Assembly: GCA_018821305.1 (NCBI GenBank)
Contig: JAHJMN010000002.1
Coordinates: 1 to 64,000 of the forward strand
Direction: 5' to 3'
DNA: 64,000 nt
DNA from: Myxococcota bacterium
GTDB taxonomy: Bacteria; Myxococcota_A; Polyangia; HGW-17
The position numbers were made by a program, and so were the translations under genes. Shown in pieces: positions 29,401-64,000 of the stretch. The first letter of the stretch is position 1, and every line of letters starts with the position of its first letter. The notes under the pieces were generated by a model. That model saw nothing but the letters and a program-made list of their open reading frames with translations. It searched no databases and was not told where the DNA came from.

Positions 29401-31488
29401 TCACGTAATTTCACGAATAATATCTGTGGCTACCCGAGCTTTTTTGTATGAAAGAGCACCCGTCGGGCAGGCGTCAACGCATTTTCCGCATCCATCACAC
29501 TGGGTCTGGATAAGAAGTTTCTGCATAGGTGGTCTGATAAGTGTTTCAAAACCTCGGTTTACAAAGGCCAGAGCATAACACTTTCGATCGTCCTCACAGA
29601 CGCGAACACAATTTCCACATGTAATGCATTTATGAGACTCTATTAAAATATCAGGATGACTGTCATCAATAAAAACAGATCTTTCGTTATCACCGGCATA
29701 GGTTTTAGAGTCAGATTCGTAAACCTCTGAAAATTTACGAAGTTTACAAGTGTCTGCTGCCCGACACCCACATTTCATACAACGCTCTGTCTCTTCTTTA
29801 ACCTGCTGTTCAGTAAATCCATAACTTACTTCATCAAACGATTTTATTGCCTCAACCGGATCCATATGAGCCACCTTTTGGCGTGGGGCTTCAGTGTACT
29901 TTTCGTATACAGCTTTTTGTATGTTTTGAAGCGGACCCATAGTTACTTCAAAGAGTTTACGATTTCCAGTCACTGCGATTCCATTCAGGTACTGATTAAT
30001 TGAAATTGCAGCCAATCTACCCATACCACTTGCTCTAACAGCAATATCAGGCCCCAGAACTGCATCTCCACCGGAGAAAATACCTTCAATACTAGTCATC
30101 ATTGTTTCATTATTTACGTCAATGGTGCCCCATTTGGAAAGTTTAAGCCCAGATTCCGCTAAAAAATCACCAATTACTTTCTGGCCAATGGCGGCAATAA
30201 CCGAATCAAATTCAACAGTATGTTCACTTCCTTCTTTTGGAACAGGTCTTCGGCGACCACTTGCATCTGGTTCCCCAAGTCCCATTTCAATACACTCAAC
30301 TTGCAATTTACCATTTGAAGGAATAATTTTTACTGGTGCACTGAGATATCTGAATTCGACTCCATCAGCAATAGCCTCTTCAATTTCAAAATCAAAGGCA
30401 GGCATTTCTTCTCGTGTTCGACGATAATAGACCAGAGCCTCAGCTCCACATCGAATTGCCGTGCGGGCTGCATCGATGGCACTGTTACCTCCTCCAACTA
30501 TCATAACTTTCTTTCCAATGGGAGGATTTTCCCCAGCGGAAACTTGACCAAGAAATTCTATAGCACTGAATACACCTGAAGAATCTTCACCTTCAACACG
30601 CATGGGTGTTGCCCCCTGAGCCCCAATTCCAAGGAAAACTGCATCATAGTCTTTTTTTAGTACATCAAGGGATAAATCTTTTCCAAGTGTCCGATTATAA
30701 TTAAATTTAACACCCATTTTTTCAAGTATACTAACTTCAAAATCAATTACATGCCTTGGAAGCCGATACGCAGGAATGCCATATCTAAGCATTCCACCTG
30801 GATGGGGGTGAGAATCAAAAACATCAACATCATGTCCGAGAATTTTTGAAAAATAAGCAACACTTATCCCTGCGGGACCAGCTCCTATTACCGCGATTTT
30901 TTTACCGGTTGGTGACCCACAGTCATGCACATATGGATCGGCTTTTTTCATGTCTTCATCTGCAGCAAAGCGTTTCAGGGACATAATTGAGATCTTTTCT
31001 TCTACAAGAGCTCGACGACATCCGCCCTCGCATGGAGCTGGACAAACTCGACCCAGAGACCCGGGAATAGGCAAACTATCTTTAATAATTCGAATTGCTT
31101 CATCTGCTTCCCCTTTGTTTAACTCATTTATAAAGCCGGGAATATCAACCCCCGTAGGGCATTCAGAATAACAAGGACCGAAACAGTCACCGGTATGATC
31201 AGAAAGCATGAGTTCAAGGGCAGATTTCCGGGCTTTTTTAATTTCTTCAGATTGAGTTTCTACTTCCATGCCTTCGTAGACAGGAGTGGCACATGAAGGA
31301 ACCAGATTTGCTCTACCACCCTTTATTCTAACTACACACATAAAACAGGAGGCAAAAGGGGTCATCTTTTCGATGTAACAGAAAGTCGGAATTTCAATTC
31401 CTGCCTGACGGGCTGCCTGAAGTATTGTAGAACCGGCCGTAGTCTGGACTTTCAAACCATCAATAATAATATTTACTGTGTTATCCAA
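29401..31488 (-). CDS. GltD/NuoG-like hybrid oxidoreductase subunit with ferredoxin domains
   Basis: This 695-aa protein begins with a 2Fe-2S plant-type ferredoxin domain (residues 1-80, PTFCYIEKMTPFASCFMCVV). A GltD-type 4Fe-4S helical domain follows (DCFGPCYSECPTGVDI, RVCPAPCEGGCRR), then a FAD site (KIAVIGAGPAGIS) and an NAD(P) site (KVMIVGGGNSAIDAA). It ends with two 4Fe-4S motifs (CITCGNCVRVC, CDGCGKCVDACPTGAL). It would move electrons between a nicotinamide and iron-sulfur carriers. The upstream NuoF-like and NuoE-like genes, in the same direction, complete a soluble three-subunit complex. Similar sets occur in hydrogenases, formate dehydrogenases and Geobacter-type NADPH oxidoreductases; no catalytic hydrogenase or formate dehydrogenase subunit is here. 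Confidence 0.85.
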   Translation of the reverse strand: MDNTVNIIIDGLKVQTTAGSTILQAARQAGIEIPTFCYIEKMTPFASCFMCVVRIKGGRANLVPSCATPVYEGMEVETQSEEIKKARKSALELMLSDHTGDCFGPCYSECPTGVDIPGFINELNKGEADEAIRIIKDSLPIPGSLGRVCPAPCEGGCRRALVEEKISIMSLKRFAADEDMKKADPYVHDCGSPTGKKIAVIGAGPAGISVAYFSKILGHDVDVFDSHPHPGGMLRYGIPAYRLPRHVIDFEVSILEKMGVKFNYNRTLGKDLSLDVLKKDYDAVFLGIGAQGATPMRVEGEDSSGVFSAIEFLGQVSAGENPPIGKKVMIVGGGNSAIDAARTAIRCGAEALVYYRRTREEMPAFDFEIEEAIADGVEFRYLSAPVKIIPSNGKLQVECIEMGLGEPDASGRRRPVPKEGSEHTVEFDSVIAAIGQKVIGDFLAESGLKLSKWGTIDVNNETMMTSIEGIFSGGDAVLGPDIAVRASGMGRLAAISINQYLNGIAVTGNRKLFEVTMGPLQNIQKAVYEKYTEAPRQKVAHMDPVEAIKSFDEVSYGFTEQQVKEETERCMKCGCRAADTCKLRKFSEVYESDSKTYAGDNERSVFIDDSHPDILIESHKCITCGNCVRVCEDDRKCYALAFVNRGFETLIRPPMQKLLIQTQCDGCGKCVDACPTGALSYKKARVATDIIREIT

Positions 31489-31597
31489 GATTTACCTCCA
31501 ACATTTCTATTCTGTCTGATCCCCAAAACTCTTTCAGAAATCAGACTTATTGGTGCCATGATAATATTTTTTTAATTAAACAAAGCAAGACCAATAA

Positions 31598-33391
31598 TTA
31601 TTTTGTCTCCACTGCAGAAAAACGACACACATCTCTACAGACGCCACATTTAATGCAGATATCCTGAACAATAGTGTATGAACCTGCTTTTCCTCTTTCA
31701 CCTTCAATAGCTTTAACGGGGCAGTTTATGAGGCAGGCATTACAACCTGTGCATTTTTCGGCGTTTATTTCAAAAGTTGTCAGGGCTTTACATACACCAG
31801 CAGGACATCGATGCTCGTTAATGTGAGCTTCATATTCTTGTCTAAAATATTTAATTGTAGTAAGAACAGGATTAGGGGCACTCTGTCCCAATCCGCAAAG
31901 ACTGGTATTTTTTACCTTATAAGACAGATCTTCAAGTAAATCGATATCTGAAGGTTTACCATTTCCTTCACAGATGCGGTTGAGTATTTCCAGCATTCTT
32001 GTGGTGCCTATACGGCAGAAAGTACATTTTCCACAGCTCTCATTTTTCGTAAAATTAAGGAAGAATTTTGCTACATCGACCATACAGGTAGTTTCATCCA
32101 TCACTACCATTCCACCACTACCCATAATCGCGCCAGTACGATTCACTTCATCGTAATCAACTCTGGTATCAAACATATTTGCAGGAATACAGCCCCCGGA
32201 TGGACCCCCCATCTGAACTGCTTTAAGCGCCCTCATTGTAGAGGAACCACCAGCAATATCTTCAAGTATTTCCTTAATCGTGATACCCATGGGAACTTCA
32301 ACAAGTCCACCTCTTTTTATTTTGCCCGCCAGAGCAAAAACTTTGGAACCCTTGCTCTTTTCTGTTCCCACACTCGCAAAAGCAGCTCCTCCATTTATAA
32401 TTATCCATGGAATATTGGCATAAGTTTCCACATTGTTTAGATTTGTCGGATAACTCCACAGACCTTTCTGGGCCGGGAACGGCGGTCTTGGAACAGGCAT
32501 TCCCCGTTTACCTTCAATGGATGCCATGAGAGCTGTTTCCTCACCGCAAACGAAGGCACCAGCACCTTCCTTCACCTTTATGTGAAGTCTTTTTCCTGTT
32601 CCCAGGACATTGTCACCGAGTATGTTTTTCTGAGTGGCTTCAAAAATTGCTTTTTCAAGTCTGGAAACTGCAAGAGGATATTCCGCGCGACAATAAATAT
32701 ACCCATATTCCGCGCCGATGGCTATCGCACAAACTGCCATACCTTCAATAACTGAATGAGGATCGCCTTCCAGTACACTGCGATCCATAAAAGCCCCGGG
32801 ATCTCCCTCATCCGCATTGCAAACTACATACTTTTTCCCGGATATTTCTTTTTTGGCCAGAGACCATTTTAATCCCGTTGGAAAACCTGCTCCACCGCGC
32901 CCTCTGAGACCAGAAACTGTAATTTCATTTATTATCCAGTCACTACCTTCTCTGATTGCTTTCGCAAGCGCTTCGTATCCACCTCTAGCAATATATTCAT
33001 CAATGGATTCTGGATCCATTTCTCCGCAGTTTCTTAAAACAATACGTCTTTGTTTTGAAAGAAATTTTCCTTCAGAGGTTGATGGATCTGTTCCCTTCAT
33101 GAGAAGTTTTTCCATTACTTTTCCACTGGAAAAATGATTATCCCATATTATGGATATTTTCTTTTCGGTGAGATCCCCATAAAGGAAGGACTTGCCTTCA
33201 TTGTCATGGTACTCCACCAGGGGCTCCCGGTGACACATACCATTACATCCAGTAATTCCAAGTTTTATGTTAAGTTGTGGATTTAATTTGATTTTTTCTT
33301 CAAGAAATTTATATATATTTTCAGCTCCGGCAGCTATTCCGCAACTTCCCAGACCAACGATCAATCGAGGGTTATTAATGGTTTCGTTCAT
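31598..33391 (-). CDS. NuoF/HndC-like NADH-binding flavoprotein subunit
   Basis: This 597-aa protein has an N-terminal thioredoxin-like 2Fe-2S domain (GSCGIAAGA ... GCNGMCHREPLVEY). The NuoF core follows, with the FMN/NADH motifs GRGGAGFPTGLKW, CNADEGDPGAFMDR and GAGAFVCGEETALMASIEG, and the 4Fe-4S motif ESCGKCTFCRIGT. A C-terminal pair of 4Fe-4S ferredoxin motifs completes it (CTGCNACLINCPVKAI, CIKCGVCRDVCRFSA). The architecture equals HydB/HndC of electron-bifurcating enzymes. It oxidises or reduces NAD(P)H and passes electrons to the NuoE-like subunit (4-nt overlap upstream) and to the GltD-like subunit (109 nt downstream). Confidence 0.92.
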   Translation of the reverse strand: MNETINNPRLIVGLGSCGIAAGAENIYKFLEEKIKLNPQLNIKLGITGCNGMCHREPLVEYHDNEGKSFLYGDLTEKKISIIWDNHFSSGKVMEKLLMKGTDPSTSEGKFLSKQRRIVLRNCGEMDPESIDEYIARGGYEALAKAIREGSDWIINEITVSGLRGRGGAGFPTGLKWSLAKKEISGKKYVVCNADEGDPGAFMDRSVLEGDPHSVIEGMAVCAIAIGAEYGYIYCRAEYPLAVSRLEKAIFEATQKNILGDNVLGTGKRLHIKVKEGAGAFVCGEETALMASIEGKRGMPVPRPPFPAQKGLWSYPTNLNNVETYANIPWIIINGGAAFASVGTEKSKGSKVFALAGKIKRGGLVEVPMGITIKEILEDIAGGSSTMRALKAVQMGGPSGGCIPANMFDTRVDYDEVNRTGAIMGSGGMVVMDETTCMVDVAKFFLNFTKNESCGKCTFCRIGTTRMLEILNRICEGNGKPSDIDLLEDLSYKVKNTSLCGLGQSAPNPVLTTIKYFRQEYEAHINEHRCPAGVCKALTTFEINAEKCTGCNACLINCPVKAIEGERGKAGSYTIVQDICIKCGVCRDVCRFSAVETK

Positions 33392-33873
33392 TTTTCACCT
33401 CCGGATTTTCCCGTATATCTGTCCATGGTTTCCTGCACTTTTACGGGAGTCAGTTTTCCATGAGTATCTTTTCCAACTAAAACAACTGGTGCAAGACTAC
33501 AACAACCAACACAGGCAACGGATTCAAGAGTATATTTTTTATCCACCGTCGTTTGTCCATTGGAAATTTTCAAATATTCTTCAAGAGTTTGAGTTATCGT
33601 AGCAGCTCCGCCAACATGACATGCTGTCCCATGGCATACTTTTATTATCACTTCACCTACTGGTTCCAGGCGAAATTGACTATAGAAAGTCGCAACACCA
33701 TATAATCGCGATGGTGTAATTTCAGTGATCTGACAAACTCTTTCAAGTGCGCCCATCGGAAGATACCGAAAATGCTCCTGAATCTTTTGAAGGATTGGGA
33801 TTGCCATTTCAGCGCCTTTGCCAGTTTTGTTAATAATTTCATCAACAATGGAAAAATCAAGAGCTTCCAACAT
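33388..33873 (-). CDS. NuoE/HndA-like 2Fe-2S subunit
   Basis: This 161-aa protein is of the 24-kDa NuoE family. An N-terminal helical bundle is followed by a thioredoxin-fold domain with the four 2Fe-2S ligands in CHGTACHVGGA and CVGCCSLAPVVLV. The ATG at 33873 is chosen because AAGGAGA lies 7 nt upstream; the longer frame to 33915 would start at TTG without such a site. It is first in the three-gene operon and overlaps the NuoF-like gene by 4 nt. Confidence 0.92.
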   Translation of the reverse strand: MLEALDFSIVDEIINKTGKGAEMAIPILQKIQEHFRYLPMGALERVCQITEITPSRLYGVATFYSQFRLEPVGEVIIKVCHGTACHVGGAATITQTLEEYLKISNGQTTVDKKYTLESVACVGCCSLAPVVLVGKDTHGKLTPVKVQETMDRYTGKSGGEK

Positions 33874-33948
33874 AACAGATTCTCCTTGCTGTTTTGTGAC
33901 TATCATATCGTGCAAATTATCACAACGTTAAAGTTACAAAATGAAGGC

Positions 33949-34002: not shown

Positions 34003-35076
34003 ATGAGCAATACGGATTCAAAAATAACGGAACTTGAAAGAAAAAATACAGAATATGACGGTCGAAAATATACCAGAGACTCTGTAAATGGGATGGTAAG
34101 CACCTATCGTGAAAGACATACCAATCATGTCAATGACTTGAAAACTCTTAAGGCCGAGCATGAAAAACTCGCCGACGAGATGAACGAAGATCTTGCAAAA
34201 CAACGTACCCTTATGGACGAAATTAAAACTATGACAAGTGGGAAAAAGGGTGGTGTTTCAAGGGGATTTAGAGGAGTCATGGCAAAAATACCTCTCCTTG
34301 GTCGTCCTTTCCGGCATAAACCTTTAGGTGACCTTCTGGAAGAAAGAGTTGAAGCGGCAGACAAGAGAAGCAGGGAAGTTGAAGCATATCTGGTCCGGGT
34401 AGAAGAAGCCATGAAAAACCTTCGTGATGATCAGGAAGTTTTGAGATCTAAACAACTGGAAGCAGCAAAACATAAAAAAGAAACTCTTGCTCTCATTGAT
34501 GAACTTGAACTCAATTTGCGCGAAACTGAAACAAAACTTAGTTCAATTGAAGATCAGAATTCTGAAGAATATCGAGAACTTGCTCTTCAAAAAGGTAAAA
34601 TTGAGACTTTAATCTGGGAGAACGGGCAGAGACTAAGATTATATGATAACGCCCAGGGTCGACTAGAGAGCATTATTCGCATGAATAACAACTTTCTGGA
34701 AATAAGTGTCAATCTGCACTCCAACATGACAATTATAAAAGAAACCGCCGAAATGGTATTGGATGAATTGCGTCAACATGTGAGTGCTATTGCTACACTG
34801 GCACAGGCAGGAGAACTTACTCTGGAACTGACTCAATCTATGGAAAGCCTGAAAGACAACATGAGCCGGGTTTCTCAACTGGCCTCAGAAACATCTCTGT
34901 TTCTTACTAAAAATGTGGAAAATATTACTGATAACATGAGAGTCTATGATCAACAGACTGAAGATCTGGTCGAAGCGAATCTTGCCGCTGAGCGGGCTGA
35001 ACGTAAAGAACAATTGGATCGAATCCTTCTTAAAGCTCGACAAGAGAGGGAAAACCTGGAAGTTGGAAAGAACTGA
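34003..35076 (+). CDS. Long coiled-coil protein, first gene of a four-gene cassette
   Basis: This 357-aa protein has no signal peptide or transmembrane segment and is almost wholly helical. Coiled coil covers about 30-70, 110-215 and 290-355. A short basic Gly/Pro-containing hinge (KKGGVSRGFRG...LLGRPFRHKPLG) sits at about 80-108. The part from 225-330 (ESIIRMNNNFLEIS, ELTLELTQSMESL) has a rhythm reminiscent of TelA-type 'toxic anion resistance' proteins, but I cannot claim homology. It has its own promoter and AGGAG site and is followed after 3 nt by the next gene. Probably a cytoplasmic scaffold for the AAA+ ATPase of the same operon; function unknown. Confidence 0.75.
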   Translation: MSNTDSKITELERKNTEYDGRKYTRDSVNGMVSTYRERHTNHVNDLKTLKAEHEKLADEMNEDLAKQRTLMDEIKTMTSGKKGGVSRGFRGVMAKIPLLGRPFRHKPLGDLLEERVEAADKRSREVEAYLVRVEEAMKNLRDDQEVLRSKQLEAAKHKKETLALIDELELNLRETETKLSSIEDQNSEEYRELALQKGKIETLIWENGQRLRLYDNAQGRLESIIRMNNNFLEISVNLHSNMTIIKETAEMVLDELRQHVSAIATLAQAGELTLELTQSMESLKDNMSRVSQLASETSLFLTKNVENITDNMRVYDQQTEDLVEANLAAERAERKEQLDRILLKARQERENLEVGKN

Positions 35077-35079
35077 TTT

Positions 35080-35994
35080 ATGAAAGCCCTGAAATTAAAC
35101 GGGGAAAATCTCACCAGACACCTGAACAATCTTTCAAACTGCGTTAATATAGGTCTGAGCAACCGATATCCAGATCCAGAAAAACTTTCTAATACTTTAA
35201 AATTATTGACATATCAACTGGAAAGTCCCAAAGGTGTACATTTTGACCCTGTTTCACAGATGCCCACTGAAGCTGAAATAACTCGTCTTTCAAACACAAA
35301 GACAATTATTGAGGAACACTACCACAATCATACCGCACCAGATGTTTGGGAAAATGATAGTTTTATAGACAATTTGAAGTCATTTTCAATAGTAAGTCGA
35401 TTTGATATAAAAACCAAACTTCTAAAAGAGGATGGTGGTTACTGGACTGTAAACATCGTACTGGATAGGTGGGCAATAAACAGGAACGTATACACCCGTT
35501 ACTCACTGGTTATGAAAGTTTCTTTAAATACTTATTATTTTCAAGACATTAATAATGGATGTTTTCCTACTGATAATCTTGTAAATATTGTTTCATCCGC
35601 TTGTCGTTTTGACAGTGAAACCACATTTCTTGCGTTGTGTGGAAATAAAGATTTGAGTGTATATTTCGTTAGTCGGGGAGAAATTGGTCCATATATAACA
35701 AAAGATTTGTCCAATTTATCTACAAAAATTGCAGATTTCGCTCCGTTTTTAATGTTTCCGCTTGATATGTGTAGTCCGGAGATTTCCGGTCGCATCGGCA
35801 ATGACTTTCTTCAAAAACAATTTTTTTCGGATATTTCTGAAGATATGAAACAAATTTTTGAAGAAGAAAGAAAAAGTAGAAAATATGGTACTTTTTGTGA
35901 AACCAGGATTGTTCCGACCACGGATGTAGACTATGTTTTCGAATCTGAGTTCAAAACTGAACATCCAAATGTAATTATTATCAGGAGAATCTAA
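35080..35994 (+). CDS. Unknown cytoplasmic protein of the AAA+/GHKL cassette
   Basis: This 304-aa protein matches no family I recognise. It has no signal sequence or transmembrane helix. The N-terminal 90 residues are helical, and 100-240 looks alpha/beta with many aromatic residues (YWTVNIVLDRWAINRNVYTRYSLVMKV is one strand-rich stretch). A charged helix at about 250-275 follows. It is separated by 3 nt from the coiled-coil gene and by 2 nt from the AAA+ gene, so it must be translated with them. Being tied to an ATPase and a scaffold, it could be an adaptor or substrate-recognition subunit. Confidence 0.7.
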   Translation: MKALKLNGENLTRHLNNLSNCVNIGLSNRYPDPEKLSNTLKLLTYQLESPKGVHFDPVSQMPTEAEITRLSNTKTIIEEHYHNHTAPDVWENDSFIDNLKSFSIVSRFDIKTKLLKEDGGYWTVNIVLDRWAINRNVYTRYSLVMKVSLNTYYFQDINNGCFPTDNLVNIVSSACRFDSETTFLALCGNKDLSVYFVSRGEIGPYITKDLSNLSTKIADFAPFLMFPLDMCSPEISGRIGNDFLQKQFFSDISEDMKQIFEEERKSRKYGTFCETRIVPTTDVDYVFESEFKTEHPNVIIIRRI

Positions 35995-35996
35995 TT

Positions 35997-37595
35997 ATGT
36001 TTTCTCATGAAGTTTTTGAAATTAAAGAAGAATCTTGCGAAGTTATACTTCCAACAATTCGTCATGCTATAATAAAATCCGGAATTGATAAATTTTGTTC
36101 TGAAATTGAAAAAAGTCCCTGGGGAATGGGAAGTCGAACAATCAGGATACTGAATTTATTAGAAAGAACACTTGTCTTATATCACGCTTTGAAAAACAGT
36201 GCCGATTTCTATCTTCATCCAGATAAAAATGACTCCGTATCAATGCTTTATGCTCTAAGTAGCGCATTCAGTTACGCTGGTGAAAAGATGGATGAGATAA
36301 CCTTCCACACTGTGCGTATAAAAAATACTTTTAACCATTCCGAAGTTCAGAGCATTGTAAATAGTAAAAACATCATCGAAATTATACCATCTGATCTTCT
36401 CTCATATATCCGTCGCCAATCAAATTACGATATGGATGATCTTGAAAAATCAATAACAGCCTGGTTTCATCTTATGTGTGTCACTATAAATCGTATAGCT
36501 GAAAATCCTGAAAATCTAGTTTTCTACCGTAAAATAGTTGATTTTCGTGCGGTTTATGAAAATCGCGAATTTGTGCCTTTTGAAAAAATTCGAGAACGAA
36601 AAGTAAATGAGGGCATTACCCTTGATGTAAGTATAGAAAAAATTATTGGTAATAGAGATTATATTGCCACCGGGCTTCGAATGATCCGAGATTTAACAGC
36701 CTGGGATCCAACAGTTGGACGTAATCCTAAAAAGTTTAATCAAGTGCTTTTTGGTTTAGGTCGCCCTGGTTCCGGTAAAACTGTTACTGCAAATGCTCTT
36801 GGTAATCATCTCTTAAAAGCTGCATCCTCAGCTGGACTTAATGCACGCTTTGTAACAATTCGCCGAACAGACTGGGCAAGCAGTTATCAGAATGCCTCTG
36901 CAAAAGCACTTTTAGAACGCTTTGAAAGTCAGATACGCGGTTTTGACGGTATAGTAATGTATTATTGGCCTGATATAGATACTGCTTTTTCATCCAGATC
37001 CAGTGGCGATCTCAGATCAGAAGAAAAGGGTATTTTAGGAACGGCTTTCGGACTTTTTGATGGAACTATTTTACCTTTTAATGGACAGTGGATGCTCGTT
37101 TGCGATGCCAATTATATACAGATGGATGAAGCAACGGTTTCCAGGCTCAGTCAGGAACCTCATACTGTGAAAGGCCCAGAAAACAAAGATGATTTCATTA
37201 GACTTTTCCGTGACATACTCATAGGAAATGACTACAGTCAATGCTTAGAAATAAACGATCTTCAGTGGATAGAAATTGCAGATTTATGCCTCAAGTATGA
37301 CTTATCCGGTCGAGATGCAGCAAATATTTCTCGACGTATTATTTCTTACATAGAAGATTTTGAATGGCCGAAAGATTTTTTTCAATTGGACTTTGCCACA
37401 AGAGTGGAAACAATTATAAAAAACAGGCGAAAAGTCAAACATTCCTATATTATTGATCAAATTAATTCTTTTCGTGAATTCCGAGAACTCGCACGAAATA
37501 GAGAACGCAGTGAAAAAATTTCAAATCTCAAGGAGAATTTTTACCTGGAACTTAAGGCTAGAACTGAGATTTTGGATGAAGATGAAAAATCATAA
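35997..37595 (+). CDS. AAA+ ATPase with a non-canonical Walker B
   Basis: This 532-aa protein has an N-terminal domain (1-220, helical, unknown) and an AAA+ module (about 225-430). The P-loop GLGRPGSGKTVTANALG is at about 254-270. The segment SSYQNASAKALLERFE aligns with the pore-loop region of AAA+ proteins, and LVCDANY may hold the sensor-1 asparagine. The Walker B strand reads GIVMYYWPDIDTAF, lacking the usual Asp-Glu pair right after the hydrophobic run. The helical lid contains SGRDAANISRRI (a sensor-2-like arginine), and a charged coiled-coil tail follows. It probably remodels or unfolds a partner; the target is unknown. It is in an operon with the coiled-coil and unknown genes. Confidence 0.8.
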   Translation: MFSHEVFEIKEESCEVILPTIRHAIIKSGIDKFCSEIEKSPWGMGSRTIRILNLLERTLVLYHALKNSADFYLHPDKNDSVSMLYALSSAFSYAGEKMDEITFHTVRIKNTFNHSEVQSIVNSKNIIEIIPSDLLSYIRRQSNYDMDDLEKSITAWFHLMCVTINRIAENPENLVFYRKIVDFRAVYENREFVPFEKIRERKVNEGITLDVSIEKIIGNRDYIATGLRMIRDLTAWDPTVGRNPKKFNQVLFGLGRPGSGKTVTANALGNHLLKAASSAGLNARFVTIRRTDWASSYQNASAKALLERFESQIRGFDGIVMYYWPDIDTAFSSRSSGDLRSEEKGILGTAFGLFDGTILPFNGQWMLVCDANYIQMDEATVSRLSQEPHTVKGPENKDDFIRLFRDILIGNDYSQCLEINDLQWIEIADLCLKYDLSGRDAANISRRIISYIEDFEWPKDFFQLDFATRVETIIKNRRKVKHSYIIDQINSFREFRELARNRERSEKISNLKENFYLELKARTEILDEDEKS

Positions 37596-37672
37596 TTAAG
37601 TCTATTTTACATGATAGCATAATTTAAATTTCTATACTTATATACAATTTTTTTGCCTGAATAACATTAGAA

Positions 37673-39055
37673 ATGAATACACAAATTGACTGGTTTAACC
37701 TTATATCGTCTAGAACAGATCCTCTGGATCCTGTTGAACAACTAATCTTAAATGCGCTCGAATCAGGAACTCATCGAATTGATATCAATACATCTTTTAT
37801 AAATAATCTTTTTCTTTTTTCAGTTCTCGACTATGGCGATGGAATGACTGAAACTGACATTGAGGATTATCTTCTAACTTTTCCCGGGTCATCTAAAATT
37901 ACGAATCATAAGGGCGTTGGTTTTGCCAAAGTTTTTAGTATCCCATTTATAAATATAATTGTAAGTACAAGAAAATATGGACGATTCATAGAGGCAGTTA
38001 TTGAACCTGATGGTTCTTATTTAATTAAACAAAATCAGAGCAGTCATGATGGGACAAAAATAGTTGTCATAACAGAGGCAAAGACATTTTATTATGATAA
38101 TAAAAAATTATTACTTTTTTTAAGCTCTAAATTCAGTGATTCAAAAATCAAGATCTTTTTTAACAACCAGATTATTAATTCTAACTATGTTTATAACACA
38201 TTTCTACAAAGTTCATATTACTGGAAATTCCTTAAAATCACTCTCACTATCGTTGGAGAGGAAAAATGCGGTGCTGTTTTTTTCCGTGATGGTGTTTTTA
38301 TTGTAAAAACAAACTCTCCTTTCCCATTTCTTGAGATTCGAGTAGATTCTAATGATTCAGAAAAAGACAATATTATTGAAACAATAGAGGAAGTGTTTCA
38401 AACTATTAAATCAGAACTTTTGCCTCAATTTATGGATTTATTTGTATTTAAAATGGCATCCGTAGCTGAAAACAGGCAATTTGCAGCAATTTATAGAGAA
38501 TATTTCTGGTACTTTTTAATTTTTATTAAGTCAGGTTATTTAAATAATATTGCAGATTTACATGTACTTCCGACCATAGATACGGAAAATAAAGCAGTAA
38601 AGACAAGTTTTTCCGGGACTCTGCACTTCAGCCGACATAAAAAAAATTCATTCAACTTGAATTTTCTGACACCAGCAATGATATTGGATTTGCGGAAATC
38701 CTGTGGAATAACTGATGAAATCAATATTATTACTGAAGAAAACTGTAACTTTGATTTATTAATAATGGATTACAGAGATGATTTTCTTCAAGTTTTCCGA
38801 CGAATTTTTAGATCTGAGACGGGTAAAGACTGCCTCGTTGTTTATTCGCAATTCATTGGAGCATCCGGAAAATTCACATGTCTTTTTGAAACGGAAAAAT
38901 CCGGATTTCTTTACGAACTAAAAAGAGGTGTAACTATTAAAAAAATACATCTCAATTATTACAGCGAAACAATAAGAGAATTGAGACGAATATCCAGCCA
39001 TCTTCCGGAATTTTCACAAAAAATTTTAGCAGATTTTATTTCCTGTTATCGTTAG
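37673..39055 (+). CDS. GHKL-type ATPase (MutL/Hsp90/MORC-like N-terminal domain)
   Basis: This 460-aa protein opens with a GHKL ATP-binding fold. The first motif is EQLILNALESG, where MutL has ELVENSLDAG. The D-x-G-x-G motif is intact (LDYGDGMTETDI), and a glycine-rich lid reads HKGVGFAKVFSIPF. The residue aligning with the catalytic glutamate (four before the Asn) is Gln, with Glu one position earlier, so ATP hydrolysis may be weak. The C-terminal 300 residues show no known domain. A 77-nt gap with no clear ribosome-binding site separates it from the AAA+ gene. Its 3' end overlaps the convergent DUF2238-like gene by 20 nt. It probably belongs functionally to the cassette. Confidence 0.75.
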   Translation: MNTQIDWFNLISSRTDPLDPVEQLILNALESGTHRIDINTSFINNLFLFSVLDYGDGMTETDIEDYLLTFPGSSKITNHKGVGFAKVFSIPFINIIVSTRKYGRFIEAVIEPDGSYLIKQNQSSHDGTKIVVITEAKTFYYDNKKLLLFLSSKFSDSKIKIFFNNQIINSNYVYNTFLQSSYYWKFLKITLTIVGEEKCGAVFFRDGVFIVKTNSPFPFLEIRVDSNDSEKDNIIETIEEVFQTIKSELLPQFMDLFVFKMASVAENRQFAAIYREYFWYFLIFIKSGYLNNIADLHVLPTIDTENKAVKTSFSGTLHFSRHKKNSFNLNFLTPAMILDLRKSCGITDEINIITEENCNFDLLIMDYRDDFLQVFRRIFRSETGKDCLVVYSQFIGASGKFTCLFETEKSGFLYELKRGVTIKKIHLNYYSETIRELRRISSHLPEFSQKILADFISCYR

Positions 39056-46972: not shown

Positions 46973-49189
46973 TTAGCGACCGAAGTATACATAGGCTTTT
47001 TTATTTGGGAGTATTACAAAGGTTTTTTCAGGGGACTTTGTTCCATCACCCCACACAGCATAAATTGAATATGGTTTTTCTCGAGATCTCAATTTTATTG
47101 CTCTGGCTGTTCCTTTAGCTTTACCGTTTATAAAAATCGTACATTTTTCAGAACAGGTTACCTGAGCAATTCCGATACCACCGGCAGGTCCAACCCCCAT
47201 TGGGTTATCGGATTTATCAGGATCTTTATCTGCAGGGTCTGATTTGATGGCATCTTTTTCCGGCTCTTTCATGGCAGGATTAGGAGAAGGAGGTGACGGT
47301 TTTGTTCCAACCGATGTTTTTCCTGTATGTCCAAGTCTGACTGTCACTGAAAGTTTTCGATTATTAACAGGAAATTCAACTTTTTCTTCTCCATATACAC
47401 CGTTTTTTTCAGCACGAATAGTTAACGGTTGATTATAACACATCTCCATTTGTAGATTAAAGATTGGTGTTTTCCGATTGATGGGCTCACCATCAATAAC
47501 AACATCAGCTTCTGAAGGAACAGATTTTATAGTAACTTCAACTTTTCCTTTTGCGCATTTTTCCTTTTTTGCTGCAAGAGGTTTTGTGGTTTTTGTTGAA
47601 GTATCAGAAGATTTTTCATTATCCATTCCTTTTACAAAATAGACAACAGTAAGTCCAATGGCACCAACGACTACAATAAGAACTAGATTAACCAGTGTAT
47701 TAGTAAAAGCTTTTCCGAGGCGCTCAAAAAAGGGACCTATGACTGGCTCTCTTGGTTTTGGAGGAATAGCAGTAAAATCTTTTCTAGCGACTTTCTGCTG
47801 AATTTCCTCTTCTTTTTCCTGAAGTATTTCTTTCTGTTCCACTCGTTGACGTCTTCTTGCAGCTCGTGCTTCAGCAGATGTAGCAACGGTTTGCGAAGAT
47901 TGAGGTGGTTGTGAAAAATCCTTTACTGGTGCAGTAACCGCCGGAGGAGCTGAAAAATCTATGGTTTCAACTCTTGGGGGTGGTGGTAACGCAGAGCCCC
48001 CATACTGTGGAAAACCTGACTGCTGTGGAGCGGATGATCCATATGGCGCTCCAACTTGCTGCGGTGGAGGGTAAGATGATTGGGGAGGCTGAACTCTAAA
48101 GGATCCCGTTGGAGCGGGCGCTGTAGAATATGGGCCTGATGGAGCATTTGCAACCTGAGCAGAACCTATCCTGTAGTTGCCAGTTCTTACTTCAGGCTCA
48201 GGTGAAAGATCTATAAAGTCCCCTGATTTCATTTCAAGATCGTCTACACGGCTTCCACCAGAATAAGGATCTGGAAATAGAGAATTGAGATAATTTGCAA
48301 CAACTTCTGGCGCAATATCGAGACCATCTCTTTTAACTATTGTATCCAAAGCATTACGGAAAGTTCTTGCAGACGGAAAACGTTGATCCCTGTCTGGAGA
48401 CATAGCCTTCATTACTGCTAAATCAAGTCCAAGAGGAAGACCCGGCACAAGTTGACTAATCGGAGTAAAACTGGCCGTTTGAGCCTTAATAATAAGCTCT
48501 GCATCTGAAGCGCCTTTTGAATGAACATCTCCGAGGAGCATTTCATAAAGCATGATGCCAATGGCAAAAATATCGATTCTATGATCAATATGTTTTCCCA
48601 TAGCCTGCTCAGGTGCCATATATCGGAATTTTCCTTTAATAACACCGTTTTGGGTATGATGCATTGATTCAGCAGCTTTAGCTATACCGAAATCAATTAT
48701 TTTAACACCACCATTATAACTAACAATTATATTTTGTGGACTTATATCCCGATGAATAATATTTAAAGGAGTATTAGTAACAGGATCTGTCGCACGATGA
48801 GCAAAATCCAGACCTGTTAAAGCCTGCCTTATAATATAAAGAACAACAGTAAGAGGAATCTTACTGTTCATCTGACGCTCATATCGAGTTATTGTTGAAA
48901 TATCCTTACCATGTATATACTCCATAGCAAGATAGTATGTATCACCCTCTTTATCAAAATCGAAAACCTGACAGATATTCGGATGGACCATATTTGAGAC
49001 AAGTCTGGCCTCATCCTTCAGCATGGCAACCATATCGTTGTCTTCACTCAAATGGGGATGCAAACGTTTTAGTGCGACAACTTTCTCGAATCCAGCAGCA
49101 CCGCGCACTCTAGCGCGAAAGACTTCTGCCATCCCGCCCCGAGCAATTCTTTCAACAAGTTCATATTTTCCGTATTTCTCAGTTATCAT
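46973..49189 (-). CDS. Transmembrane Ser/Thr protein kinase with PEGA-like domain
   Basis: This 738-aa protein has an N-terminal kinase domain (about 5-275) with the Gly-rich loop IARGGMAEVF, the ATP lysine in VALKRLHP, catalytic loop IIHRDISPQNII, metal motif DFGIAKA and APEQ. A Pro/Gln/Ser-rich linker follows (about 340-450), then a basic stretch, one transmembrane helix (about 505-527, NLVLIVVVGAIGLTVVYFV) and an outer part. That part holds PEGA-like segments (VPSEADVVIDGEPINRKTP; CTIFINGKAKGTARA). The ATG at 49189 (MITEKYGKYEL) is preferred to a TTG nine codons upstream. It is a signalling kinase; the PP2C enzyme at 14641 is a possible opponent. Confidence 0.93.
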   Translation of the reverse strand: MITEKYGKYELVERIARGGMAEVFRARVRGAAGFEKVVALKRLHPHLSEDNDMVAMLKDEARLVSNMVHPNICQVFDFDKEGDTYYLAMEYIHGKDISTITRYERQMNSKIPLTVVLYIIRQALTGLDFAHRATDPVTNTPLNIIHRDISPQNIIVSYNGGVKIIDFGIAKAAESMHHTQNGVIKGKFRYMAPEQAMGKHIDHRIDIFAIGIMLYEMLLGDVHSKGASDAELIIKAQTASFTPISQLVPGLPLGLDLAVMKAMSPDRDQRFPSARTFRNALDTIVKRDGLDIAPEVVANYLNSLFPDPYSGGSRVDDLEMKSGDFIDLSPEPEVRTGNYRIGSAQVANAPSGPYSTAPAPTGSFRVQPPQSSYPPPQQVGAPYGSSAPQQSGFPQYGGSALPPPPRVETIDFSAPPAVTAPVKDFSQPPQSSQTVATSAEARAARRRQRVEQKEILQEKEEEIQQKVARKDFTAIPPKPREPVIGPFFERLGKAFTNTLVNLVLIVVVGAIGLTVVYFVKGMDNEKSSDTSTKTTKPLAAKKEKCAKGKVEVTIKSVPSEADVVIDGEPINRKTPIFNLQMEMCYNQPLTIRAEKNGVYGEEKVEFPVNNRKLSVTVRLGHTGKTSVGTKPSPPSPNPAMKEPEKDAIKSDPADKDPDKSDNPMGVGPAGGIGIAQVTCSEKCTIFINGKAKGTARAIKLRSREKPYSIYAVWGDGTKSPEKTFVILPNKKAYVYFGR

Positions 49190-49301
49190 GATCAGATTCA
49201 GGTAAAATCCTGCCAATAAAAGTCTCTACCCGGAAATTCGAAGCACATTTTTCAGCAAATATAAAATCCGGATGGATACCATAAGATGCTGAATTTACTG
49301 A

Positions 49302-59990: not shown

Positions 59991-60749
59991 TCAGAAAAAA
60001 TTGATTTTTTTAAATATTTTATCAAGTGCGTTCATGGAGATAGATGTATCAGATATTTTTGAGAGAGGTAAACCCATAGAATCACGCGTGGTTACTTCCT
60101 GATCTTGAGGAACTAAACCAATTACTGGCATTTCATTTTCTTTTAGAATATCAACTAGTTCTTCGTCGGGATAATCTACCCTGTTAAAAATAGTTCCGAT
60201 AGTCTCCGGGGGGCTGATAGTGTGGTCTTTAAGTGTTTTTAATGCAAGCAAAGTTGTATTTATTCCTCTTCGGGAATTATCCGTTACAAAAAAAGCCGCA
60301 TTTACCGTTTTCGTCACCTGCCTGTTGATCTGTTCAATACCAGCTTCAGCGTCAATAATGATTATATCAAAACTATCCGCTATCCTGCTTATTGTCTCCC
60401 GCAACAGGTTGTTTACACTACAAAAACACCCGGAAGTCTCCGTTTTTCCCATAACAAGAAGATTTATGGGACCAACGGCAGTAAGAGCAGAAAGAATCAG
60501 GTAGTCAATTATTTCACTGAGTCTGGCGGTTTCATCCTGTTTTGCTATGGATGCCTGACGAATAATCTCCAATCGGGCTTCACCAACTGTTACAAACCTA
60601 TCCGCACCTAGAGCCATTGCACAGCCCGTAGCAGGATCTGCGTCTATGACAAGAGTTTTAAGGCCTTTTTCAACTGCAATTTTTGCAGTTAAGGCAGAAA
60701 GAACTGTTTTCCCGGTTCCGCCTTTTCCCATAAAAGCAAGGGTCTTCAT
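59991..60749 (-). CDS. CooC/MinD-like P-loop ATPase, probable metallocluster maturation factor
   Basis: This 252-aa SIMIBI ATPase has the deviant Walker A MGKGGTGKTVLSA. The segment SGCFCSVNNLLR carries the CxC motif of CooC proteins, and DIIIIDAEAGIEQINR is the Walker B/switch region. CooC inserts nickel into carbon monoxide dehydrogenase; relatives act on other iron-sulfur or nickel enzymes. No CODH gene is in the window, so its client may be the HgdB/BcrC-like protein or a gene beyond the edge. It is last in a five-gene operon and overlaps the preceding gene by 4 nt. Confidence 0.88.
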   Translation of the reverse strand: MKTLAFMGKGGTGKTVLSALTAKIAVEKGLKTLVIDADPATGCAMALGADRFVTVGEARLEIIRQASIAKQDETARLSEIIDYLILSALTAVGPINLLVMGKTETSGCFCSVNNLLRETISRIADSFDIIIIDAEAGIEQINRQVTKTVNAAFFVTDNSRRGINTTLLALKTLKDHTISPPETIGTIFNRVDYPDEELVDILKENEMPVIGLVPQDQEVTTRDSMGLPLSKISDTSISMNALDKIFKKINFF

Positions 60750-61468
60750 ATGTTTCTCCTGTAATCAATTACTTTTCTTACGATTTCACATACATTCTTT
60801 TCATCACAGTCGTCACAATCTGCTTCAGAACAAACGATACCTTCTCTTTCCCAAGTCAATTTGCGATTATTTCCAGATATTATAGAGGCGGACAACTGCA
60901 ATTCAGATAATTTATTGTATAATTCCAAATTATTAATCCCAATAAAAATATCCATACGGTTAATTTCAGGGAAAATGCGTCTATATTCTTCCCTTACAAA
61001 TTGTGCAAAATTATAGGTTGAAAATATATTAGACCGCTCATAATCTATTCGGATCCATAGTTTTCCTGGTAGTCTTCTAATCATAATTCCTTTAAGAGTA
61101 TTTATCATATACATCAGATCCGTAATTTGGGAAAAAACAAGATCCGGTGGAGTTTCCAATTCGAAAGCAACCAAATAAAAAAAATTATCTATCACTGACC
61201 TGCTATCCAATTTATCACATAAATATATATTGTCATTTACAATATTTTTATTTAGAGTCCATAAATTAAAAACCATTGATAATGAACCTGGTTTTCCAAT
61301 TTCAATAGCAGTTTCTTCTGAAAGAACTATACGATAATTATGTTTGTCCGCTCTATGTGCAGCAATAGACTGTGCGGCGATCAGATCCCCGGAAGGAAAA
61401 CACGTAAACTCTTTTTTCAGGTCATTAAGCCTTTCAATAAGAGGATAATGATCATTGATTCCACTCAT
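60746..61468 (-). CDS. Unknown protein with C-terminal four-Cys motif in the activase operon
   Basis: This 240-aa cytoplasmic protein has an alpha/beta look, with EIGKPGSLSMVFNLWTL at about 57-73. A C-terminal Cys cluster VCSEADCDDCDEKNVC (C-x4-C-x2-C-x5-C) could bind an iron-sulfur cluster or zinc. It may correspond to proteins annotated 'carbon monoxide dehydrogenase beta subunit family' that accompany CooC and activases in anaerobes. I could not confirm that. It overlaps the activase gene and the CooC-like gene by 4 nt each, so it belongs to the same functional unit. Confidence 0.6.
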   Translation of the reverse strand: MSGINDHYPLIERLNDLKKEFTCFPSGDLIAAQSIAAHRADKHNYRIVLSEETAIEIGKPGSLSMVFNLWTLNKNIVNDNIYLCDKLDSRSVIDNFFYLVAFELETPPDLVFSQITDLMYMINTLKGIMIRRLPGKLWIRIDYERSNIFSTYNFAQFVREEYRRIFPEINRMDIFIGINNLELYNKLSELQLSASIISGNNRKLTWEREGIVCSEADCDDCDEKNVCEIVRKVIDYRRNI

Positions 61469-62241
61469 TTTTTTTCACTGTCTAATGCCCATAGTGCTGC
61501 GCCAAAGGCTCCAGCGTACATGGGATCTTCTGGATACTCCAATAAAACCATATCCGTCACTGTCCTGAGTTTATTTATAAAATATTTATTTTTAGCCAAC
61601 CCCCCACAAACCATCAGGGGGCCTGATGCGGTTATTCTTTTAAGCATAGTATTAGTTTTTAATGCAATGGACGAAATAATGGATGCGATGATATCCCCCG
61701 GATTTTCCCCGGAATTTAGTTTTCCAATAACTTCACTTTCTGCAAATACCGCACAATTAGAAACCATTTTTGAAACTCTTGTCGAAGAAAAAGCAAGATC
61801 TGAAATATCGGCGACATTTACGCCAATTATTTTTGCTGTAACTTCCAGGAACTTTCCACTTCCGGCCGCACATTTTTCATTATCTGCAATTAGAACAGGG
61901 TTACCACTGGTATCAATTGTTAAAGTATTTACAAAAAGAGCACCTGCGTCAACCACGGATAAAATTTCATTATTGTAATAAAAACATGCTTTTGCTGCAG
62001 CGTGCTCTGGAGTAAGACGAATTTTTGCAGGAGATCGGACCGTTGCCCAACCGGTAATAGCAGTTTTTTTTATTTGAAACCAGGCAATATTCGCTTCTAA
62101 AAGAGCTGCCTGATAAGAAGAAAACAATGTATCTTTGAAATTTCCAGATAAAGGCCTGGAATCCCTGCCGATGATTATTGAATCTTGCACAATGCATGTT
62201 TTTATATTTTTAAATCCTATATCAAACCCGGCTGTTATCAC
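61465..62241 (-). CDS. BadF/BadG/HgdC-type activase subunit with degenerate ATPase motifs
   Basis: This 258-aa member of the activator family of 2-hydroxyacyl-CoA dehydratases/benzoyl-CoA reductases keeps the two cluster cysteines (KCAAGSGKF and NCAVFAESEV) and the adenosine motif VCGGLAKN. However, the phosphate-1 motif reads DIGFKNIK (usual DxGS) and the phosphate-2 motif reads DAGALF (usual DIGGQD). It may therefore bind the 4Fe-4S cluster jointly with the intact partner at 62238 but not hydrolyse ATP itself. The genes overlap by 4 nt. Confidence 0.88.
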   Translation of the reverse strand: MITAGFDIGFKNIKTCIVQDSIIIGRDSRPLSGNFKDTLFSSYQAALLEANIAWFQIKKTAITGWATVRSPAKIRLTPEHAAAKACFYYNNEILSVVDAGALFVNTLTIDTSGNPVLIADNEKCAAGSGKFLEVTAKIIGVNVADISDLAFSSTRVSKMVSNCAVFAESEVIGKLNSGENPGDIIASIISSIALKTNTMLKRITASGPLMVCGGLAKNKYFINKLRTVTDMVLLEYPEDPMYAGAFGAALWALDSEKK

Positions 62242-63020
62242 GAAACAATCTCCTTGTTTCTTGCAAATATAGCGGCACCAATGGCTCCCATAAGTTGTGG
62301 ATCATGATTAAGTTTTGTGAGTTTGAGTTTCAGGATATCCTGAATATCCCTACATACAGCGGGATTTTTTGAAACGCCACCAGAAATACAGATATTATTA
62401 CGCAATTCAAGCTTACCAGCGAGTTGAGCGATTCTCCGGGCTGTTGTAATAGTTATTCCCCGGGCAATCTGTGCCGTTTTTTCTCCGTTAAGTAGATGTT
62501 GCATAACATCAAGTTCCATAAAAATACTGCATTTATTGGAAACAGGGAGCGACTTTGATGATTTCATAGCAATATATCCAAGTTCGGAGACAGACAAACC
62601 AAGAGTCTGAGCCATTATTTCAAGGGAGCGACCTGTTCCTGCTGCACATTTATCATTCATAACAAAATCATCCACAAATCCTCTCTCATCTACGCAAATT
62701 ATTTTACAATCTTGCCCACCTATATCTATTATAGTCCTGATTGTACTATTACTGAAAAATGCACCGGCACCATGGCAAGAGATCTCACTTTTATTTATAT
62801 CAGCAATTATAATTTCATACCGTCCATATCCCGTTGCACAAACACATGAAATATCATGTCTTTTTAAATCTCTTTTTTCCAGAACTGCTGAAAACACTTT
62901 CTCCGCGCTGGCTGATGGGTTTGAAATCCCTGATATTAAAGCAGTTGAAATTATATGATTATTTTTCAACAATACGGCCTTGGATGTATTGGATCCTATA
63001 TCTATACCACAGAAAATCAT
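62238..63020 (-). CDS. BadF/BadG/HgdC-type activase subunit (intact ATPase)
   Basis: This 260-aa archerase-type activase has intact motifs: FCGIDIGSNTSKAVLL, IDIGGQDCK, KCAAGTGRSLEIMAQ, KCSIFMELDVM and ICISGGVSKN. In the family a dimer holds one 4Fe-4S cluster between subunits, and ATP hydrolysis drives an electron at very low potential into the dehydratase or reductase. Here it likely pairs with the degenerate protein at 61465 to serve the HgdB/BcrC-like protein encoded upstream. Four-nt overlaps exist on both sides. Confidence 0.92.
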   Translation of the reverse strand: MIFCGIDIGSNTSKAVLLKNNHIISTALISGISNPSASAEKVFSAVLEKRDLKRHDISCVCATGYGRYEIIIADINKSEISCHGAGAFFSNSTIRTIIDIGGQDCKIICVDERGFVDDFVMNDKCAAGTGRSLEIMAQTLGLSVSELGYIAMKSSKSLPVSNKCSIFMELDVMQHLLNGEKTAQIARGITITTARRIAQLAGKLELRNNICISGGVSKNPAVCRDIQDILKLKLTKLNHDPQLMGAIGAAIFARNKEIVS

Positions 63021-64000
63021 TTCAGATTTTTCACTTTCTCATAAAAAGCCTGGATTCTGGTTCTGATTTGGCTCTTCCCACCGCCATAAAGTTCTCGAGT
63101 CAAAAGTAGAAATGGAGTTTCTTCTTTTCGAAATTCTTGACTCATAATCCATCCTTCTCCTGTCATCATTGAACAAAATTCGAGTTTTTCGATGATTACC
63201 GCGTCAACTTGATATTTTTTTACAGCCTCTTTAATTAGTTCAATTCTTTTTTCCGTATCGTTCATTATTCGTGGGCAAGACGGAGATCTCAAGTATCCTT
63301 CAGCAAGCGCGATAACAGGTTCTTCCTCCATTGAAATATCTCGGTCAAAATAACGAGAGCCAAGACAAATATTATCATAAACTATATTAGCTCCAATATT
63401 TTCTATTATTTCAAAGTGTTCAATTTCTTCAACGCAGTTGCCTGTAACCAGAACTCTCAGATTCTTTTCAATTTGTGGAGCGTTTTTTAGTTCTACTATC
63501 AGTTCATCAAGTTTTTCACAGGCGATATCCGGTGGTAACACAGTTGTTGCAATCATAACCATAAGAAAATCAGTTCCACTAAGTTTAATACCTCTGAAAC
63601 TTGAGACATTCCTCAATAGATTTCTTTTCCTCTGGTACAACTTAATTGAATCACGGATCTTTTGTTCTGAAAGTTTCAGTTTATATATAGACTCTATATG
63701 ATTAATTAGTTTTTGTAGTTCATTGATGTATTGATTCAGTGAGGCATCCGTTTTACTGTGAGGCACAAATAGCAAATAAGTCCATGGAGTCTGAATTTGA
63801 GCATAATTCCAATTATCATAGAGTCTCCGATTATGATCACAACCGTTCATAAAAACTATTCCATCTAAAAACCCATATGCACCGGAAAGACCCTTATCAA
63901 GAACTCTCCTCGGAAATGAACAATTTCCAGTTGAAAAATACATATCACCCCTGGATGTCCCCTCACTTTCCACTGCATTCAGCCTCACTGGAGTAAACCC
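63017..64000 (-). CDS. HgdB/BcrC-like (2-hydroxyacyl-CoA dehydratase/benzoyl-CoA reductase) subunit, 5' end outside the window
   Basis: The 327 residues seen are the C-terminal part; the frame stays open to the window edge (GFTPVRLNAVES precedes the first GTG), so that GTG is not the start. Cluster-type cysteines appear in TGNCSFPRR, MNGCDHNRRLYD and LEFCSMMTG, the positions used by dehydratase, benzoyl-CoA reductase and double-cubane reductase subunits. The segment RDISMEEEPVIALAEGYLRSPSCPR is also family-like. It is the probable acceptor of the two activases encoded next. Substrate unknown. Confidence 0.85.
   Translation of the reverse strand, partial: GFTPVRLNAVESEGTSRGDMYFSTGNCSFPRRVLDKGLSGAYGFLDGIVFMNGCDHNRRLYDNWNYAQIQTPWTYLLFVPHSKTDASLNQYINELQKLINHIESIYKLKLSEQKIRDSIKLYQRKRNLLRNVSSFRGIKLSGTDFLMVMIATTVLPPDIACEKLDELIVELKNAPQIEKNLRVLVTGNCVEEIEHFEIIENIGANIVYDNICLGSRYFDRDISMEEEPVIALAEGYLRSPSCPRIMNDTEKRIELIKEAVKKYQVDAVIIEKLEFCSMMTGEGWIMSQEFRKEETPFLLLTRELYGGGKSQIRTRIQAFYEKVKNLK

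Follow-up and report, generated by a model that had tools for sequence, protein, structure and literature searches.

A conserved four-gene unit joining an Hsp90-like protein and an AAA ATPase to two unnamed protein families in Myxococcota and other bacterial phyla

What kind of unit is formed by four closely spaced genes, two coding for ATPases of known superfamilies and two for proteins without a named family, that stand between a nuoE/nuoF-like operon and a membrane gene in a myxococcotal genome? The genes, here called p1 to p4, lie in a 64,000-nucleotide stretch of a Myxococcota bacterium (assembly GCA_018821305.1, contig JAHJMN010000002.1), referred to below as the window. The four open reading frames and their spacing given in a preliminary description of this DNA were reproduced exactly, with gaps of 3, 2 and 77 nt (p1/p2, p2/p3 and p3/p4) and all four frames intact (Table 1). 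Because homologues at 15-35% identity keep full-length frames and gene order in other phyla, we regard p1 to p4 as real genes. The single promoter that had also been claimed was not confirmed and is an assumption, since promoter-like sites (20 in the region; chance expectation from shuffled sequence, 18.4) and terminator-like sites were both at the level of shuffled sequence. Upstream of p1, Pfam matches revealed a divergent nuoE/nuoF-like operon (33915 and leftwards), and downstream of p4 there is a convergent DUF2238 membrane gene. Elsewhere in the window, a 1439-aa protein (5208-9527, minus strand) and a gene cluster (59991-63988, minus strand) resemble, by sequence reading, 2-hydroxyacyl-CoA dehydratase activators or components.

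Table 1. Genes and sequence features of the four-gene locus (positions in the window)
Feature	Position	Strand	Description
nuoE-like, nuoF-like and 695-aa fusion (2Fe-2S, 4Fe-4S, pyridine-nucleotide oxidoreductase domains)	29401-33915	-	adjoins p1; conserved in the window's family
p1	34003..35076	+	357 aa; charged, Pro-poor, probably long-helical; family without database name
p2	35080..35994	+	304 aa; alpha/beta; confident predicted model, no match in PDB
p3	35997..37595	+	532 aa; single-ring classical AAA ATPase, as predicted
p3 Walker A GRPGSGKT, residues 255-262	36759..36782	+	G255, P257, G258, G260, K261, T262 invariant in 31 homologues
p3 pore-loop region ASSYQNA, residues 294-300	36876..36896	+	conserved aromatic Y297; aligned by hhalign onto FtsH EMFVGVG
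p3 Walker B YYWPDIDT	36960..36983	+	unusual; aligns with FtsH FMDEID
p4	37673..39055	+	460 aa; Hsp90-like GHKL protein; Bergerat fold and Hsp90-like middle region
p4 N-box EQLILNALES	37736..37765	+	Mg-binding Asn27 kept; catalytic Glu position 23 is Gln

To see how widely this arrangement occurs, we scanned one genome per species (84,980 species) with two short peptide patterns, which can miss relatives, and obtained 64 loci from Myxococcota, Elusimicrobiota, Vulcanimicrobiota (Eremiobacterota in record titles), Armatimonadota, Planctomycetota and unnamed bins. Two bins labelled as proteobacteria cluster with other lineages in the p3 tree and may be mislabelled. Gene order, read at the 64 loci by profile search of all ORFs, was p1-p2-p3-p4 in loci of five phyla, and in many of them another GHKL gene of far greater size came next (p4b, ~600-1850 aa by profile search of ORFs). 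The nuoE/nuoF-like synteny is local to the window's family, and no neighbour that might give a functional clue was common to the phyla at these loci. In the window's family p4 stands directly 3' of p3, even in two members in which p2-p3-p4 was relocated and p1 stayed by the nuoE-like gene. The operon is split in several lineages, which indicates that stable co-expression is not universal. Part of the phylum carries a p1-p2-p4a-p4b cluster without p3 (p4a being the intact p4 homologue), and further families carry p4a-p4b as a stand-alone pair; the GHKL pair is thus the widest module, p1-p2 the next, and p3 the most restricted. At one locus (L180, G391:C45) 20 kb contain the p1-p2 pair twice, at separate sites that both have GHKL genes nearby, which represents a duplicated system. 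In an Elusimicrobia bin (L097) the AAA gene is apparently split into two overlapping frames, possibly by a frameshift or sequencing error.

Co-occurrence was examined in 379 genomes of the phylum, with p4 counted at E<1e-50. We found p3 in 14 genomes, p1 in 34, p2 in 52 and p4 in 81, and these sets are nested, with p2 present in 33/34 genomes that have p1 and p4 in 50/52 that have p2. The preliminary description had expected the GHKL gene to accompany the other three, and this held from the side of the AAA gene, as p1, p2 and p4 are present in 14/14 p3 genomes, but not from the side of the GHKL gene, whose relatives occur without the AAA gene in 67/81 genomes; the GHKL module is therefore older or wider than the cassette. 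With relatedness ignored, p1 and p3 occur together in 14 genomes against 1.3 expected (P=1e-16), and the P-values for co-occurrence range from 1e-10 to 1e-38; the p3 set spans four families, and the pattern was repeated in other phyla. Where an AAA locus lacked p1, p1 was found elsewhere in 18/19 genomes tested, usually beside p2, and a genome-wide search detected GHKL relatives in 23/23 genomes tested. AAA-only loci in Nannocystaceae were considered as a counter-example and rejected, because p1 (with p2) and GHKL genes are present elsewhere in those genomes. Even in genomes with a broken-up operon p2 usually remains beside p1. Taken together, these results show that p1 and p2 travel as a pair and that the four genes are a conserved unit, in support of the earlier view of a self-contained unit of several components, AAA+ and GHKL ATPases among them, that matches no described system.

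The two small proteins had been described as lacking known domains, and neither p1 nor p2 matched a Pfam, NCBIfam or PADLOC family. Family alignments (25 p1 members from 5 phyla and 27 p2 members) gave only scattered weak matches: no Pfam match was consistent across the 25 p1 members, where the weak ones were of helical or coiled-coil type, and none extended across the 27 p2 members. The earlier label of coiled-coil scaffold for p1 is plausible from its composition, but the heptad test for a coiled coil was not significant; p1 is probably a long-helical protein, and scaffold or adaptor is the role we propose for it. The predicted structure of p2 was of high confidence (pLDDT 89.5, pTM 0.89), and a Foldseek comparison with PDB structures gave no match below E=0.19, with query-normalised TM-scores <=0.15 among the matches listed. 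On the strength of this model, p2 is a candidate new fold.

Judged from its sequence and predicted structure (AF2, pLDDT 87.4), p3 is a classical AAA protein of the spastin/Vps4/p97 type. It matched PF00004 above cut-off, although the Pfam AAA domain is marginal, and the best Foldseek matches of the model in the PDB were spastin, Vps4, katanin and p97 (E=1.8e-8). The AAA core fold, Walker A, aromatic pore loop and sensor-1 Asn are found in p3 as in spastin/katanin/Vps4, p97 and FtsH. Catalytic residues were placed by profile alignment with the FtsH of the same genome, which put SYQN on the aromatic pore loop; Q298, N299 and S301 are invariant in the homologue alignment, as are Y323, W324, D326, I327 and D328 of the Walker B region. 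In contrast to other classical AAA proteins, p3 has a [P/A]DID Walker B in place of the canonical DEID (Asp to Pro/Ala and Glu to Asp in homologues, with no canonical hhhhDE), a helical N-domain of its own (~200 aa, without assigned family) and the signatures YWPDIDT and RRTDWASSYQNAS; it ends in a long C-terminal helix. No protease or membrane domain was found in p3. Given the non-standard Walker B, ATP turnover by p3 may be slow or gated.

A MutL/MORC kinship had been suggested for p4; this was wrong and was rejected, since scores against Hsp90/HtpG were far better and the best solved relatives of the family are HtpG and other Hsp90s. The Pfam HATPase match of the window protein is sub-threshold. 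The p4 family profile aligned with HtpG at E=2.4e-15 over the ATP-binding (N) and middle domains, up to about profile position 405 of 513 when checked for the C-terminal dimerisation domain of Hsp90/HtpG, and 18/22 family members matched the Pfam SACS (sacsin) domain. In addition to these two likenesses, intact homologues share with Hsp90/HtpG and sacsin the Glu/Asn pair and the Arg. The p4 proteins differ from them in size (~450-600 aa), in an unrelated C-terminal part, in being encoded with p1-p2-p3 and in being usually paired with a giant degenerate copy, and window p4 differs further in having neither the Glu nor the Arg. A canonical HtpG candidate is present elsewhere in the window's genome.

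Window p4 keeps the Bergerat-fold residues N27, D53, G55, G57, G81, G83 and T128 (N-box Asn, DxGxG and GxG). The Glu/Asn pair and a middle-region Arg have been described for Hsp90 and sacsin (PMC9880540). Distant homologues keep the catalytic Glu at the position four residues ahead of the N-box Asn; the window has Gln there, and close relatives have His or Ala; the N-box accordingly reads RELVQN or RELIQN in intact homologues, QLILN in the window, HLVLN in its nearest relative and ALVAN in two others. Within the window's family one member retains the Glu, and one subgroup has lost the N-box near-completely. The middle-domain Arg lies in TLTRDN in intact homologues, and the window segment, IRVDSNDSEKDN, has no Arg. 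These residue losses, read against established Hsp90 enzymology (compare PMC9880540), point to a loss of p4 hydrolysis in the window lineage, and window p4 is probably a hydrolysis-dead clamp that still binds ATP.

Most other lineages have two Hsp90-like proteins, an intact p4a with ELxQN...TLTRDN and a giant degenerate p4b in which both the glycine-rich box and the Asn of the N-box (ELVQAA) are lost; p4b is missing in the window. In other Myxococcota families, lone pairs (L183-L189; genomes G251, G397, G266, G242, G358, G284 and G178) consist of an intact GHKL of ~540-630 aa followed by a giant degenerate one of ~1700-2700 aa (simple ORF calls, some of them a single ORF). Such a lone pair counts by itself as an Hsp90-like pair not described before. 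Furthermore, Plesiocystis pacifica (G059) and Enhygromyxa salina (G060, G077) have 6-7 Hsp90-like GHKL profile matches per genome, which represents a family expansion, although HtpG or MutL may account for some of them.

The preliminary description had recognised no described system with these parts, and we likewise found none in family libraries or open-access papers, so that an existing description is possible outside these sources. Restriction-linked MORC/paraMORC systems resemble the cassette in placing a GHKL ATPase in a multi-gene unit; however, the nearest relatives of p4 are Hsp90s rather than MutL/MORC, and no SF2 helicase, nuclease or methylase, a MORC/paraMORC trait, was a conserved neighbour in the 64 loci. 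MoxR-vWA conflict systems (PMC7159879, eLife 2020) likewise combine an AAA+ chaperone with partner proteins in one unit. The cassette differs in having no vWA, VMAP or effector and in that p3 is predicted to be of the classical AAA rather than the MoxR type; profile searches gave no MoxR or vWA match among the four proteins, and the paper makes no mention of Hsp90 or GHKL. Membership of a tellurite-resistance operon had been named as an alternative, and no TelA/Ter family was found in the window proteins by Pfam, NCBIfam or PADLOC. Two components of the cassette fall in known superfamilies and two in none; in mechanistic terms it would be kin to chaperone machines already described. A bacterial coupling of an Hsp90-like pair to an AAA ring is not known to us, and our searches brought up none.

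The reading we favour, with a probability of about 0.5, is of an undescribed chaperone-type machine for protein remodelling, inherited mostly vertically and present in the window lineage in a reduced form, the cassette. A client would be recruited by the p1-p2 pair, acting as adaptor or scaffold, and clamped by the Hsp90-like protein or pair; the AAA ring of p3, its aromatic pore loop kept, would pull or remodel it. As window p4 is probably non-hydrolysing and p4b is gone, p3 would be the only possible motor in this lineage, and p4 might act as a nucleotide-sensing clamp. The p3 protein is not needed everywhere, given the p1-p2-p4a-p4b clusters without p3 and the lone p4a-p4b pairs. More tentatively, at somewhat less than even odds, the cassette represents a new class of machine with an asymmetric Hsp90-like pair (active p4a and pseudo-ATPase p4b), a p1-p2 adaptor in which p2 is a new fold, and an AAA ring with a non-canonical Walker B; the window lineage would have lost p4b and hydrolysis of the Hsp90 type and retained the rest. 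Non-canonical catalytic residues in both window ATPases mean that a decaying or signalling role could fit as well, and the unusual residues also allow slow or gated activity.

Three other explanations were weighed against this chaperone-type machine. A role in filament or membrane remodelling is conceivable but unlikely; in it, p1 would build helical assemblies capped or adapted by p2, a spastin/Vps4-type p3 would take them apart, and p4 would be the chaperone of their assembly. The structural matches of p3 and the charged, Pro-poor, probably helical p1 would suit such a role, but the spastin/Vps4 matches hold for the whole classical clade, the coiled-coil test of p1 was not significant, and no PspA/Snf7-type Pfam family appeared for p1 members among the matches listed. 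Slightly less probable is that the functional unit is p1-p2-p3 only and that p4 is an incidental, decaying neighbour. This would agree with the 77-nt gap, with catalytic residues missing from most members of the window's family and with GHKL relatives that occur alone; however, p4 has stayed directly behind p3 through relocation, its frame in the window is intact, and other phyla show the same order with an intact GHKL.

We consider it very unlikely that the cassette acts against phages or in another biological conflict, with its AAA+ and GHKL proteins as sensors, even though AAA+ proteins occur in MoxR-vWA (PMC7159879) and GHKL proteins in Shedu/paraMORC (PMC12137116, PMC2292703) conflict systems. 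Searches of PLSDB plasmids, INPHARED phages and IMG/VR turned up no p3 relative, no defence system was found beside the four genes, and no effector domain, whether nuclease, TIR, protease or another, was found in the four proteins, for which PADLOC (library dated 2023) returned weak P-loop scores only (best E=0.0095). The PADLOC match of a kinase at 46973-49216 comes only from the general Ser/Thr kinase domain of that protein. The position by the nuoE-like genes is conserved in the window's family, and the p3 tree largely follows phylum (7 label changes against a minimum of 5 and 18.4 in shuffles), with window p3 grouping with its own family (support 100/100). Distance matrices of p1, p2, p3 and p4 correlate (r 0.71-0.96), in part through shared species history. 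These results suggest that the cassette is mostly vertically inherited, unlike a mobile defence system. Of the remodelling-or-defence role offered earlier, the first half thus stands, in that this kind of unit suggests protein remodelling, and the defence half is unsupported by any PADLOC family, mobile context or neighbouring defence system.

In bacteria, Hsp90 biology is commonly equated with HtpG. Here, two unnamed protein families, one of them without a PDB match, are tied by nested co-occurrence to two ATPases across at least five phyla. The carriers include the culturable Nannocystis, Plesiocystis and Enhygromyxa, which makes the system testable now, and the series from intact to probably dead Hsp90-like proteins in one operon is a natural experiment on the purpose of ATP hydrolysis by Hsp90.
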